Shown: piece after piece, positions 43,499 to 48,113 of the stretch | Layout of the letters: each line of letters starts with the position of its first letter | Position numbering within the stretch: position 1 is the stretch's first letter | Assembly: GCA_025458045.1 (NCBI GenBank) | Contig: JALOTE010000001.1 | Coordinates: forward strand, 1-64,000 | Origin: Rhizobiaceae bacterium | Lineage (GTDB): Bacteria > Pseudomonadota > Alphaproteobacteria > Rhizobiales > Rhizobiaceae | DNA length: 64,000 bases | Direction: 5' to 3' | Position numbers and translations under genes: made by a program | Notes under the pieces: model-generated | Databases searched by the model: none | Told to the model about the DNA's origin: nothing | Seen by the model: only the letters and a program-made list of their open reading frames with translations

Positions 43499-46400
43499 TC
43501 AAACCAACTCGACATCAACCACGCCGGGCACGGCCTTCACCGCGCCGGACACCTGCGGGCTGACGCTGAACTTCTCCGGCAGCAGCACTTCGATCTCGCG
43601 CGCGCCCTGTTCTTTCACTACCACGAGGCTGACCTCGCTCTTGCCGCCCTTTGGCAGCAGGCTGAAAATGGAGGCGAGCGGACCGTCATCGCGCACAAAG
43701 ACACGCATCTGCTTTTGCGCGTTGGCGGCCATGGCCTCCAATGACTCGACCGACGAGATGCGGATGTTGATCCCTTCCGGACGGTCTTCCGCCGTCACCA
43801 TCAGCACCACGGCGCGGCCGGGTTCCAGCGCTTCACGGTAGTGTGCGAGCGCTTCGGCAAACAGAACCGCCTCATATTGGCCTGAAGCGTCGGACAGCGC
43901 GATGATGCCCATCTTGTTGCCGGTGCGGGTCCGGCGCTCCGCCCGCGAAATCACGGTTCCCGCGAGCCGCCCGGCCGTCACGCCGCGCCGCACGCTTTCG
44001 GCGAATTCGGCGAATGCGGGAATGCCCTTGCGTTCGAGGAAGGCGCGATACTCGTCGAGCGGATGCGAGGACAGGTAGAAGCCAGCCGCGTCATATTCAC
44101 GCTTCAGTTTTTCGGCGGGAGTCCATGGCGCAACCTTGGGCAGCACCAAGGTTTCGGGCCCTGCCCCGCCGAGCGCGAAGATGTCCGACTGGCCGGATGC
44201 CTTGTTGTCATTGGCGCGCGCTGAAAGGCCGAGCAAGCGGTCGACGCCCTCCATCATCGCCGCACGGTCAACTCCGAAGCAATCGAGCGCGCCCGCTGCG
44301 ATCAGGCTTTCATAGACGCGCTTGTTGATGAAGCGCGGATCAACCCGCGCGCAGAAATCCGAAAGCGATGTGAATGGCGCTTCGTTGCGCTTGCGCACGA
44401 TCTCGTCCACTGCGCCTTCGCCGATCCCCTTGATGGCGGCGAGTGCATAGAGGATCTTTCCGTCCTTCACCTCGAAGCGCGCATGCGAGGTCATCACGGA
44501 GGGCGGCACCACGGTGATGCCGATCCGCTCGGCCTCTTGCCGGAAATCGCTCAGCTTGTCGGTGTTGAGCAGGTCGAAGCTCATCGAGGCGGCAAGGAAC
44601 TCCACCGGATGATGTGCCTTCATCCACGCTGTCTGGTAGGAGACGACCGCGTAGGCGGCCGCGTGCGATTTGTTGAAGCCATAGTCAGCGAATTTTGCGA
44701 GCAGGTCGAAAATGGCGTTCGCCTGCCCCTTGCCGACACCGCGCTCGGTTGCGCCCTTCACGAAGCGCTCGCGCTGCACTTCCATCTCGGCGCGGATCTT
44801 CTTGCCCATCGCTCGCCGCAGCAGGTCGGCCTCGCCGAGCGAGTAACCGGCCAGTTCCTGCGCGATCTGCATGACCTGCTCCTGATAGACGATGACGCCC
44901 TGCGTCTCGGCGATCAGATGGTCGATCTTCGGGTGGATGGAGGCGATTTCCTCCTCGCCATTTTTCCGGGCGTTGTAGGTCGGGATGTTTTCCATCGGGC
45001 CGGGGCGGTAAAGCGCCACGAGCGCGATGATGTCTTCGATGCGGTCGGGCTTCATGCCGATCAGCGCCTTGCGCATCCCGGCCGATTCCACCTGGAAGAT
45101 GCCGACCGTTTCGCCGCGTGACAGCATCTCATAGGTCGCCTTGTCGTCGAGCGGCAGCGTGGCGAGATCGATGTCGATGCCTTTGCGGCGCACCAGCGCC
45201 ACCGCGGTTTCAAGCACGGACAAGGTCTTGAGGCCGAGGAAGTCGAACTTCACCAGCCCCGCCTTCTCCACCCATTTCATGTTGAACTGCGTCACCGGCA
45301 TGTTCGAGCGCGGGTCGCGATACATCGGCACCAGTTCGGCGAGCGGCCTGTCGCCGATCACGATGCCCGCAGCATGGGTGGAGGCGTGGCGGTAGAGTCC
45401 CTCCAGCTTCTTGGCGATGTCGAGCAGCTTGCCGACAATCGGCTCGCGCTCGATTTCCTGCGCAAAGCGCGGCTCTTCCTCCACGGCCTTGGAGAGCGGC
45501 GTCGGGTTGGCCGGATTGTTCGGCACCATCTTGCAGAGCTTGTCCACCTGGCCATAGGGCATTTGCAGTACGCGGCCGGTGTCCCGCAGCACCGCGCGGG
45601 CCTGCAATGTCCCGAAAGTGATGATCTGCGCCACTTGGTCGCGACCGTATTTCTGCTGGACGTAGGCAATTACTTCGTCGCGGCGTTCCTGGCAGAAGTC
45701 GATGTCGAAATCCGGCATCGACACGCGGTCGGGGTTGAGGAATCGCTCGAACAGCAACGAGAAGCGCAGTGGATCGATGTCGGTGATGGTCAAGGCATAG
45801 GCGACCAGCGAGCCTGCGCCCGAGCCCCTGCCCGGCCCCACCGGAATGCCCTGCCGCTTGGCCCATTGGATGAAGTCGGCAACGATGAGGAAGTAGCCGG
45901 GGAACTTCATGCGTGTGATCACGCCCAATTCATAGTCAAGCCGCGCGCGGTAATCCTCCACGCTGTGGCCCTCGACCGGCCCGGTGACCGCAAGGCGCGC
46001 TTCGAGCCCGGCATGTGCCTGTCGCGCCAGCTCATCTGCTTCCGCCGCAAGCGCGGCCACCTCATCGGCCGTGTCTCCGCCGACAAAGCGCGGCAGGATG
46101 GGATCGCGGGACTTGGGGAAGAACGCGGCGCGGCGCGCGATCTCGGCGGTGTTCTCCAAGGCCTCCGGCAGATCGGCAAACAGGGCCGCAAGTTCGGATT
46201 GACGCTTGAGGCAGTGGTCGGGGGTCAACCGCCGCCGGTTGTCCTCCGCAATCACCGCGCCTTCCGCGATCGCCAGCAGCGCATCATGGGCCTCGAAATC
46301 GGCTGCCTCGGCGAAATAGGCTTCGTTTGTCGCAACGAGCGGCAGATTCAGTTCATAGGCAAGGCTGATCATGACGCGTTCGATGGCGCGCGACGTGCCG

Positions 46401-46972
46401 CGCTGGCGTTGCAACTCGACATAAAGCCTGTCGCCGAACAGCGCCGCAAGCGCTTCCAGCCGCGCCCGCGCCAAAGCGGATTGTCCGGCCTCCAACGCGC
46501 GGGCGATCGGGCCATTCGGTCCACCCGTCAGCAGGATGACGCCTTCGGCATGGCGCTCCAACTGCGCATAGGGCAAGCGCAGCAAGCCGCCCTCCCCGCC
46601 TTCCAGATAAAGCGCCGACGACAAGGCCACAAGGTTGGCATAGCCCCGCGCGGACGCGGCTATGAGGACGACTCCGGCTCTCGCCCTTCGCCGCGGGTCG
46701 GCATCATCGGCGAGCGCCAGTTCCGGCGGAAACGCGATCTCCATGTCGCAGCCGATGATCGGTTGGACGCCCGCCGCCTTTGCGGCATCGGCAAACTGCA
46801 GTGCGCCAAACAGGTTGTTCGTGTCGGCGATGCAGACAGCGGGCGCAATGTCGGCCGCGGTGCGCGCCACGATGTCCTTGATCTGCAAAGCGCCTTCAAG
46901 CAGCGAATAGGCCGAGTGCACCCGCAAATTGATGATGGGCTCGCGCCGCTTTGTTCCGCCTGCGTCCATCAT
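43499..46972 (-). CDS. dnaE: DNA polymerase III alpha subunit
   Basis: Replicative polymerase, 1157 residues. PHP domain at the N-terminus (LRVHSAYSLLEGAL; the first His of the metal-binding HxH is Arg, as in E. coli), palm with catalytic aspartates in MPDFDIDFCQERR, fingers motif GRGSGAGSLVAYAL, helix-hairpin-helix and OB domains toward the C-terminus (LAGTVISRAERRTRTGNKMG). Length and position behind lolD fit the chromosomal replicative DnaE rather than the shorter SOS polymerase DnaE2. Two adjacent ATG codons; the gene is 85 bases after a small SOS-box-associated gene. Confidence 0.95.
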   Translation of the reverse strand: MMDAGGTKRREPIINLRVHSAYSLLEGALQIKDIVARTAADIAPAVCIADTNNLFGALQFADAAKAAGVQPIIGCDMEIAFPPELALADDADPRRRARAGVVLIAASARGYANLVALSSALYLEGGEGGLLRLPYAQLERHAEGVILLTGGPNGPIARALEAGQSALARARLEALAALFGDRLYVELQRQRGTSRAIERVMISLAYELNLPLVATNEAYFAEAADFEAHDALLAIAEGAVIAEDNRRRLTPDHCLKRQSELAALFADLPEALENTAEIARRAAFFPKSRDPILPRFVGGDTADEVAALAAEADELARQAHAGLEARLAVTGPVEGHSVEDYRARLDYELGVITRMKFPGYFLIVADFIQWAKRQGIPVGPGRGSGAGSLVAYALTITDIDPLRFSLLFERFLNPDRVSMPDFDIDFCQERRDEVIAYVQQKYGRDQVAQIITFGTLQARAVLRDTGRVLQMPYGQVDKLCKMVPNNPANPTPLSKAVEEEPRFAQEIEREPIVGKLLDIAKKLEGLYRHASTHAAGIVIGDRPLAELVPMYRDPRSNMPVTQFNMKWVEKAGLVKFDFLGLKTLSVLETAVALVRRKGIDIDLATLPLDDKATYEMLSRGETVGIFQVESAGMRKALIGMKPDRIEDIIALVALYRPGPMENIPTYNARKNGEEEIASIHPKIDHLIAETQGVIVYQEQVMQIAQELAGYSLGEADLLRRAMGKKIRAEMEVQRERFVKGATERGVGKGQANAIFDLLAKFADYGFNKSHAAAYAVVSYQTAWMKAHHPVEFLAASMSFDLLNTDKLSDFRQEAERIGITVVPPSVMTSHARFEVKDGKILYALAAIKGIGEGAVDEIVRKRNEAPFTSLSDFCARVDPRFINKRVYESLIAAGALDCFGVDRAAMMEGVDRLLGLSARANDNKASGQSDIFALGGAGPETLVLPKVAPWTPAEKLKREYDAAGFYLSSHPLDEYRAFLERKGIPAFAEFAESVRRGVTAGRLAGTVISRAERRTRTGNKMGIIALSDASGQYEAVLFAEALAHYREALEPGRAVVLMVTAEDRPEGINIRISSVESLEAMAANAQKQMRVFVRDDGPLASIFSLLPKGGKSEVSLVVVKEQGAREIEVLLPEKFSVSPQVSGAVKAVPGVVDVELV

Positions 46973-47057
46973 GGCCGTACCCCGATTCCGAAGTGGTCAG
47001 CCTATGCGAGATGCACGCGTTCCGACAGCTTGATGACGCGTCATCCACCGTTGACGG

Positions 47058-47144
47058 TCAAACCGCCGACGCCCACATGGCGATGGTGATCAGGAACGCC
47101 GACAGGGACACAAGTGCGGCCACATCCTGGACAAACTCGACCAT
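47058..47144 (-). CDS. 28-residue single-helix membrane peptide, probably SOS-induced
   Basis: A 29-codon frame (28 residues and TGA) with ATG at 47144, preceded 4 bases away by GGAGGG, a near-ideal ribosome binding site. The product starts MVEFVQDVAALVS and continues into one hydrophobic helix ending ITIAMWASAV. Upstream are three consecutive GTTC half-sites with LexA-box spacing and a CtrA-like palindrome. Caulobacter SidA, a 29-residue inner-membrane division inhibitor induced by DNA damage, has this size and context; homology cannot be shown by eye. It precedes dnaE and might be co-transcribed with it. Confidence 0.6.
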   Translation of the reverse strand: MVEFVQDVAALVSLSAFLITIAMWASAV

Positions 47145-47166
47145 GGAACCCTCCAATTCGCGTTAA

Positions 47167-47192
47167 GTTCGATGTATGTTCTTTATGTGTTC
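47167..47192. promoter_or_regulatory. Triple LexA (SOS) half-site array
   Basis: GTTC at 47167-47170, 47178-47181 and 47189-47192, each pair 7 bases apart, giving two overlapping copies of the alphaproteobacterial LexA box GTTC-N7-GTTC. It lies 22-50 bases before the 28-codon gene and would cover its transcription start. Confidence 0.75.
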
Positions 47193-47197
47193 ACTTC

Positions 47198-47212
47198 TTA
47201 ACGGAACGTTAA
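47198..47212. promoter_or_regulatory. CtrA-type box
   Basis: TTAACG and CGTTAA form a perfect palindrome around GAA, which also reads TTAA-N7-TTAA, the consensus for the cell-cycle regulator CtrA. It is between the two LexA-type sites. Confidence 0.5.
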
Positions 47213-47228
47213 AATCCGGCCGCAACGC

Positions 47229-47243
47229 GAACATATTTGGAAC
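47229..47243. promoter_or_regulatory. Second LexA (SOS) box
   Basis: GAAC-N7-GAAC on the plus strand, which is GTTC-N7-GTTC in the direction of the small gene and dnaE. It is about 37 bases upstream of the triple array. Confidence 0.7.
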
Positions 47244-47423
47244 AGAAACAAAAACGCGGAAACCCGCGAATTCCGCTCGCCAATCAGGGCGGCGGCTGGC
47301 GGTGGCGCTCACACGACGCACAACGCAGAAGCAGGCGGAACATGGCAATCGCCGTCCAGCCGTGTGCGCAGCCTGTCGGCCCAAGACGCAACTGCCTTGC
47401 TTACGAAAAGTCAGCCGATCGGA

Positions 47424-48113
47424 TCACGCGGTGACGATGCGGCGGTCCCGCAACGTGATGATCCGGTCCATGCGGCGCGCGAGGTCATGGTTATGTGTGA
47501 CAATCAGCGCGGCAAGCCCGGACTGGCGCACAAGCGCCTCCAGAGCCTCGAACACATAGCTTGAGGTTTCGGGGTCGAGATTGCCTGTAGGCTCATCGGC
47601 CAGCAGAAGCCGCGGCGCATTGGCAACGGCGCGCGCGATCGCAACACGCTGCTGCTCGCCGCCGGAAAGCTCCGCCGGGCGGTGCAAGGCACGGGGCGCA
47701 AGCTTCATATAGGCAAGCAACTGGCCCGCCCGGTTCGCCGCCTCGGCCTTGGTCAGGCCCGCGATCATCTGCGGGATCATGACATTCTCAAGCGCCGTGA
47801 ATTCCGGCAGCAGGTGATGGAACTGGTAGACAAAGCCGATCGAGGTGCGGCGCAGCGCGGTCCGCTCGCTGTCGCCCATGCGCGCCGCGTCCTCTCCCGC
47901 GATCAGCACCTGTCCCTGATCAGGCGATTCAAGCAGGCCCGCCAGATGCAGCAAGGTCGATTTGCCGGCACCGGACGGCGCGACAAGTGCAACCATTTCC
48001 CCCTCATGCACGGCGAGATCGCCGCCCTCGAGGATGACGAGCCGCTTGTCGCCCTCCGCATACCAGCGGTGGATATCGCGAAATTCCAAAACGGGCGCGG
48101 CGGCGGTGTTCAT
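47424..48113 (-). CDS. lolD: Lipoprotein-releasing system ATPase LolD
   Basis: ABC ATPase that powers release of lipoproteins from the inner membrane to LolA. 229 residues: Walker [13 protein letters not shown] signature [14 protein letters not shown], Walker [16 protein letters not shown] and the switch His in VTHNHD. The ATG at 48113 overlaps the lolC stop by 4 bases. Part of proS-lolC-lolD. Confidence 0.95.

Follow-up and report, generated by a model that had tools for sequence, protein, structure and literature searches.

A conserved gene for a SidA-like single-helix peptide under a LexA-type operator between lolD and dnaE in a Rhizobiaceae bacterium

The window, i.e. the whole stretch of 64,000 nucleotides from a Rhizobiaceae bacterium (order Rhizobiales) that was analyzed here, harbors between lolD and dnaE a 28-codon frame which, judged by its conservation in relatives, is a real conserved gene. 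It encodes one hydrophobic helix and lies downstream of a LexA-type operator. The case for homology of this gene to sidA of Caulobacter, by common descent, is good, though not certain. By analogy with SidA it is probable that the product is a SidA-type SOS division inhibitor, a LexA-repressed single helix that would act on the FtsW/FtsI/FtsN complex.

Organization of the lolD-dnaE region

The following features were assigned in the window, offsets being counted from the ATG of the peptide gene:

43499..46972, minus strand: dnaE, on the same strand as the peptide CDS and 85 nt downstream of it
47058..47144, minus strand: CDS of a 28-residue SidA-like single-helix peptide (basis: translation, frame kept in relatives, pN/pS)
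47149..47154, minus strand: Shine-Dalgarno sequence GGAGGG (basis: sequence; a similar motif is present in 51/53 loci)
47167..47181, minus strand: overlapping LexA-type box GAACATACATCGAAC, offset -37, sharing one GAAC/GTTC with the box at -48
47178..47192, minus strand: LexA-type box GAACACATAAAGAAC, offset -48, with the same offset in many relatives
47196..47201, minus strand: TTAAGA at the -35 position, 9 nt before the box, where 28/53 loci have TTG[AC][CA]
47198..47212, no strand: CtrA-like palindrome TTAA-N7-TTAA, TTAACGGAACGTTAA, its proximal half overlapping the -35 position
47229..47243, plus strand: distal match GAACATATTTGGAAC, GTTC-N7-GTTC on the minus strand, starting 37 bases upstream of the double box
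47255..47268, minus strand: terminator-like hairpin and T tract in the gap between lolD and the peptide promoter (weak: 1 found, 0.7 expected from shuffles)
47424..48113, minus strand: upstream lolD-type ABC transporter ATPase (Pfam: ABC_tran; the name lolD is taken from context)

The gene order in the window is lolD - peptide - dnaE. The peptide, MVEFVQDVAALVSLSAFLITIAMWASAV (28 aa plus stop, minus strand 47144-47058), reaches a maximum 17-residue hydropathy of 2.21, contains neither Lys nor Arg and has its Trp at position 24. A sequence-only reading had proposed a small membrane peptide gene at this place; its coordinates were all confirmed, and the proposal holds in that the gene is conserved and encodes a hydrophobic helix. 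No match to the peptide was obtained with Pfam, NCBIfam, PHROGs or PADLOC models up to E 1, and RNA folding around the leader gave nothing notable (z -0.05).

Conservation of the frame and its neighbors

With the window peptide as query, matches were obtained in 42 of 101 genomes, itself included (E<=10; the weak ones include chance matches such as L027). A profile built from 28 loci retrieved with this query (A1) matched 148/397 genomes of the order at E<=0.01, and 249/397 were without a match at this threshold. For further comparison 53 loci were used, which are the 59 retrieved (the best 30 per search, of 46 and more than 148 matches) minus six, namely L027, a chance match inside a respiratory-chain-like protein, the truncated L076, and L071, L077, L084 and L089, which were second fetches of one locus. 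L026 was retained despite having neither box, lolD nor dnaE; its peptide MAFIRDFASLVSLVLFLVSMLAWRELFIPLV (L270/L026, genome G056) is family-like, yet no LexA box was found there and neither lolD nor dnaE lies within 9 kb.

Across the 53 loci the peptides are 28-36 residues long. Within three genera, pN/pS was 0.12, 0.16 and 0.10; it was 0.50 over 21 loci of the window's family and 0.41, with much silent change, over 30 Caulobacteraceae loci. Whether the frame is kept in relatives was the check proposed together with the sequence-only reading, and it was passed, with matches in 148/397 genomes and pN/pS of 0.10-0.16. Frames of 28 codons are common, and this one could have arisen by chance, without coding function, inside an SOS promoter of dnaE; since the frame is conserved in relatives with an excess of silent changes, also where dnaE is missing, this reading was rejected and its probability is practically nil.

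In a class-wide profile search 154/385 genomes matched at E<=1, and 11 of 29 new loci were inspected. Two loci of the same order (L033, L051) and two of other orders (L034, L035) adjoin dnaE, and the other seven of the 11, at which neither dnaE nor lolD was found, look like chance matches. Within the order, the SidA-like gene is widespread and was missed by the family models searched.

The closeness of the gene to dnaE, which follows on the same strand after 85 nt, could also suggest a leader peptide or an upstream frame that regulates translation or transcription of dnaE, all the more as an sORF of Sinorhizobium meliloti, sORF25, is placed in the 5'UTR of dnaE1 (PMC10117765) and is possibly a member of the SidA-like family. 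Within the fetched stretch of the 53 loci, lolD was found upstream in 40 and dnaE downstream in 27, with both in 23, either in 44 and neither in 9; in 17/53 loci lolD and the peptide are present but dnaE is not seen downstream. Likewise, dnaE was absent from 15 loci of the window's family that were covered over a wider span of 9-13 kb, and in 7 of the 9 inspected among these the next long ORF (mechanically called) lies on the opposite strand. In addition, the amino acids are conserved beyond silent sites. Because operator and residues are kept without dnaE, the gene is not merely a dnaE leader; with dnaE so often absent from the stretches fetched, this explanation was rejected as very improbable.

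A LexA-type operator upstream of the peptide gene

GTTC-N7-GTTC is described as the SOS box of Caulobacter (PMC9578287). In the window, GAAC-N7-GAAC was observed three times compared to 1.86 expected (26/100 shuffles reach 3), and all three matches fall inside 77 bases at the peptide gene; genome-wide the motif was not enriched (76 matches versus 112 for the reversed control). By itself this count carries no significance, and the case for the operator rests on its conservation in relatives. A strict GAAC-N7-GAAC was present within 120 nt upstream on the coding strand in 46/53 loci but in only 3/1113 control windows, and with one relaxed position in 51/53 loci versus 4/1113. The control windows were taken from the same loci and are richer in GC and mostly coding; among those with GC <= 0.55, 1/125 has a strict or relaxed box. 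The LexA boxes seen in the sequence-only reading are thereby borne out.

The box starts mostly at about -48, and the double box at -48/-37 also occurs in L002, L003, L006, L009, L064, L065 and L067. In the 28 loci with a TTG[AC][CA] element, this element lies exactly 9 nt before the box, and therefore LexA would sit between -35 and -10. For the distal box at 47229-47243 no counterpart at that place was noted in relatives. Among five further dnaE-linked copies (L304, L305, L307, L310, L311), a strict box was found only in L304; the other four have one GAAC and a degenerate partner, and control of these copies may differ.

On contig C131 the host genome has a lexA gene (DNA-binding domain plus S24 peptidase), and the box GAACACAGGCAGAAC lies 57 nt ahead of its domain match. 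On contig C172 a LexA-type box precedes an impB/mucB-type gene and a second dnaE. LexA-type boxes were further observed before a chlI/Mg-chelatase-like gene (L263, C170) and an lhr-like helicase gene (L264, C159), which makes both candidate SOS genes; chlI is reported as an SOS gene of Caulobacter, and the filamentation of a Caulobacter lexA mutant as caused by sidA (both PMC12700426). The genome also has a sub-threshold match to RF01867, the Caulobacter RNA family CC2171 (G000:C97:4431-4626, E 3.4e-4). RF01867 was rejected as a marker of Caulobacterales, being too widespread (80/372 genomes of the class at E<=0.001, 13 of them over the cut-off).

A CtrA-type site in the window promoter

For TTAA-N7-TTAA, 0.03 occurrences are expected by chance in the 64-kb window. 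Genome-wide, 19 sites were found versus 5 for the reversed control, and CtrA sites of this form are therefore plausible here. Within 120 nt upstream of the peptide gene, the motif was detected in only three of the 53 loci (L001, L014, L017), each time at a different distance, and in 0/1113 control windows. The CtrA box, also part of the sequence-only reading, is thus present in the window but is not general, and CtrA timing was rejected as a general feature. Judged from these occurrences, a CtrA input to the peptide gene would at best be a local, lineage-specific addition; in the window promoter, a CtrA half-site may possibly have been swapped in for the basal -35 element.

SidA genes of Caulobacteraceae occupy the same slot

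Small frames upstream of dnaE were examined in 27 genomes of other orders in which dnaE was found (28 searched). At L093, L095, L100, L102 and L111 a small hydrophobic frame directly follows a strict LexA box; at L105 such a frame is present without a strict box. The peptide at L111, 29 residues long and located between lolD and dnaE, matched 96/119 genomes of its family at E<=1. In a scan of named genomes the best 80 of 149 loci were from Caulobacter, Phenylobacterium, Brevundimonas, Caulobacteraceae or -ales, or were taxonomically unresolved, and included Caulobacter vibrioides T5M6 and OR37. Among these best 80 loci, dnaE lies within 400 nt downstream in 79, including C. vibrioides T5M6 (the exception is L209, where the sequence ends about 100 bases past the match), and a strict LexA box is present in 54.

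The NCBIfam model NF033228, 'cell division inhibitor SidA', matched 30/30 aligned Caulobacteraceae peptides at E<=1, and three of the Caulobacteraceae peptides scored singly reached 57-72 bits (cut-off 35). SidA genes therefore occupy the lolD-dnaE slot. The Caulobacter locus CC1927 is taken to be sidA. In the literature sidA is given as CCNA_02004 (PMC10769358) and the dnaE of Caulobacter as CC1926 (PMC1839093).

Relation of the window peptide to SidA

The window peptide did not match NF033228 (cut-off 35 bits), nor did any of 28 peptides of the window's order at E<=1. Over 199 genomes of the order none passed the cut-off, and the 26 weak matches at E<=0.1 are probably due to chance, because they lie away from the A1 match wherever the genome has one listed. 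The window peptide is therefore named SidA-like and not a member of NF033228.

In a profile-profile comparison (hhalign) the alignments of the order and of SidA matched with E 2.2e-4, free of gaps from the first Met, with a probability of only 45%. Column permutation with the register fixed at Met gave p values of 4e-4 and 1.6e-3 for two scores, and 1.3e-3 and 6.4e-3 when the N-terminus was shuffled separately from the hydrophobic core. When the register was shifted from -4 to +4, zero shift scored highest. The top shared columns besides Met are D/E7, L11, S13 and F17.

Both profiles were also scored against 591 decoys, hydrophobic frames drawn from the same DNA. Any frame with 7 residues in common with a known member had been taken out beforehand, and after that 6/597 decoys that reached at least 15 bits with either profile; four of these six resemble true unaligned members (L026, L051 type), and the two others, from L059, which was fetched as a profile match, seem unrelated; keeping these two would slightly weaken the reverse test. 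With the profile of the order, 30/30 SidA peptides scored above the 95th percentile of the decoys and 28 above the 99th (AUC 0.997). In the reverse direction, 17/28 members of the order exceeded the 95th percentile with the SidA profile and 11 the 99th (AUC 0.89), and 0.5% of the decoys equaled or beat the window peptide. L093 and L095, located at dnaE in another order, obtained 20.2 and 14.6 bits with the profile of the order and 13.1 and 6.0 bits with the SidA profile, while L100, L102 and L105 obtained 11-23 bits and 0-3 bits, respectively.

Window peptide and Caulobacter SidA have similar lengths (28 versus 29 residues), consist of one helix, share the GTTC-N7-GTTC operator and the lolD-peptide-dnaE locus, and match without gaps with D/E7, L11, S13 and F17 in common. 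They differ in that SidA has arginines mostly at positions 3 and 6 and its Trp at 19, whereas the window peptide has no N-terminal arginines, a Trp at 24 and a score below the NF033228 cut-off. Common descent is concluded from the locus, the operator, the length, the gap-free residue match and the profile scores against decoys. The kinship with SidA suspected in the sequence-only reading is supported by locus, operator, length and profile comparisons, somewhat beyond the 'functional analogue' named there. We propose a SidA-like superfamily, whose traits, a helix of about 28-36 residues, a LexA-type operator, the lolD-peptide-dnaE locus and a profile related to SidA beyond common hydrophobicity, are all found in the window gene, the profile relation being of moderate strength.

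Short hydrophobic peptides easily resemble one another, and the likeness to SidA could be a matter of chance if the gene encoded an SOS-induced membrane toxin of type I that harms the membrane and slows growth. TisB and DinQ, two type I toxins of about this size, are single-helix peptides under LexA control. We consider this reading improbable, as the gap-free match to the SidA profile exceeds that of hydrophobic decoys and the locus is the same as that of the Caulobacteraceae SidA genes. In addition, the window peptide has no Lys or Arg, and neither Pfam nor NCBIfam models matched it up to E 1. As regards an antisense RNA antitoxin of the type I kind, a sigma-70-like promoter was absent from both strands of 46900-47450, and there was no Rfam match in 46800-47500 up to E 1 (consensus scans only). 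Neither a locus nor a sequence link of the window gene to TisB or DinQ was found; DinQ is described as an SOS-regulated toxic inner-membrane peptide (PMC3567139).

Relatives in viral contigs and prophage-like DNA

Second copies in several genomes lie in prophage-like DNA and are without a strict LexA box. Among them, L308, L309, L312 and L314 are located near repressor and RecT/exonuclease VIII/Erf or integrase genes. In genome G656 a longer relative occurs as three identical copies (L301, L302, L303), of which L301 adjoins a repressor-like frame; this genome also has the LexA-boxed copy between lolD and dnaE (L304).

Viral contigs yielded 11 loci (L318-L328), three with profile A5 and eight with profile A7; a strict LexA box within 200 nt upstream was found in 0/11. 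At least two of these contigs are not independent, because they are identical in size (42186, 41685) to genome contigs with copies. Neither A6 nor the SidA alignment A2 retrieved relatives from the viral contigs, and tblastn against phage records gave no match, although the low-complexity filter of BLAST may hide such peptides. Nine neighbor proteins at five loci match PHROGs entries for repressors or regulators, for exonuclease VIII, for RecT-like or Erf-like proteins, or for an integrase. The phage-type peptides scored 19-51 bits with the profile of the order (35-51 in the A7 group), and the SidA profile gave them about 0-11.5 bits. Over 6 distinct sequences of the A7 group, pN/pS was 0.72, which does not demonstrate purifying selection.

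A natural reading of these loci would be that temperate phages carry a division-arrest peptide. Tentatively, SidA might be regarded not as peculiar to Caulobacter but as the founder of an alphaproteobacterial division-arrest family with a LexA-gated chromosomal checkpoint form and a LexA-free phage form beside early recombination genes, the window copy perhaps being CtrA-gated by a half-site that replaces the -35 hexamer. If this is true, temperate phages would halt division of the host during lytic growth by means of a phage-borne SidA-like form.

Proposed mode of action

In the SidA-type reading, LexA would occupy the overlapping GAAC-N7-GAAC boxes between -35 and -10 as long as DNA is undamaged, and the promoter would be off. 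Upon DNA breaks RecA would become active and LexA would undergo self-cleavage, the 28-residue peptide would then be translated from the strong ribosome site, insert into the inner membrane as a single helix and keep FtsW/FtsI/FtsN, the complex for septal wall synthesis, inactive until LexA recovers. We infer induction, membrane insertion, the FtsW-complex target and division arrest by analogy; damage induction, insertion and the septal hold are expected from the probable homology of the gene to sidA of Caulobacter, where the function of SidA has been described (PMC4211646).

The C-terminal half and the N-terminal charge of the window peptide differ from those of SidA, and Rhizobiales show unipolar growth (PMC9022086). 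A SidA homologue whose target has moved off FtsW, e.g. to the polar-growth machinery of the order, is thus conceivable. We regard such a move as unlikely, since D/E7, L11, S13 and F17 are kept in register and no positive pointer to another target was found.

Inhibition of division by small membrane proteins is known from other systems, of which SosA, YneA and ChiZ are larger than the SidA-like peptide. These three are likewise SOS-induced small membrane inhibitors, but come from Gram-positive bacteria and mycobacteria. DidA of Caulobacter is, like SidA, a small membrane division inhibitor on the FtsW/I/N complex (PMC4211646), but differs in its length of 71 aa and in being under DriD rather than LexA. 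YneA is reported to interact with FtsW, and low-confidence AlphaFold 3 models in the same source place SidA on the opposite side of FtsW TM7 (PMC13396833).

Significance

Among the open-licence papers listed, work on SidA was recognized for Caulobacter, and none was recognized on an SOS division inhibitor of rhizobia or their relatives. Because gene and operator are widespread in the order, its checkpoint for DNA damage becomes directly testable. The natural SidA variants, those of phages included, would provide a ready series with which to work out how one helix can switch off the machinery of division.
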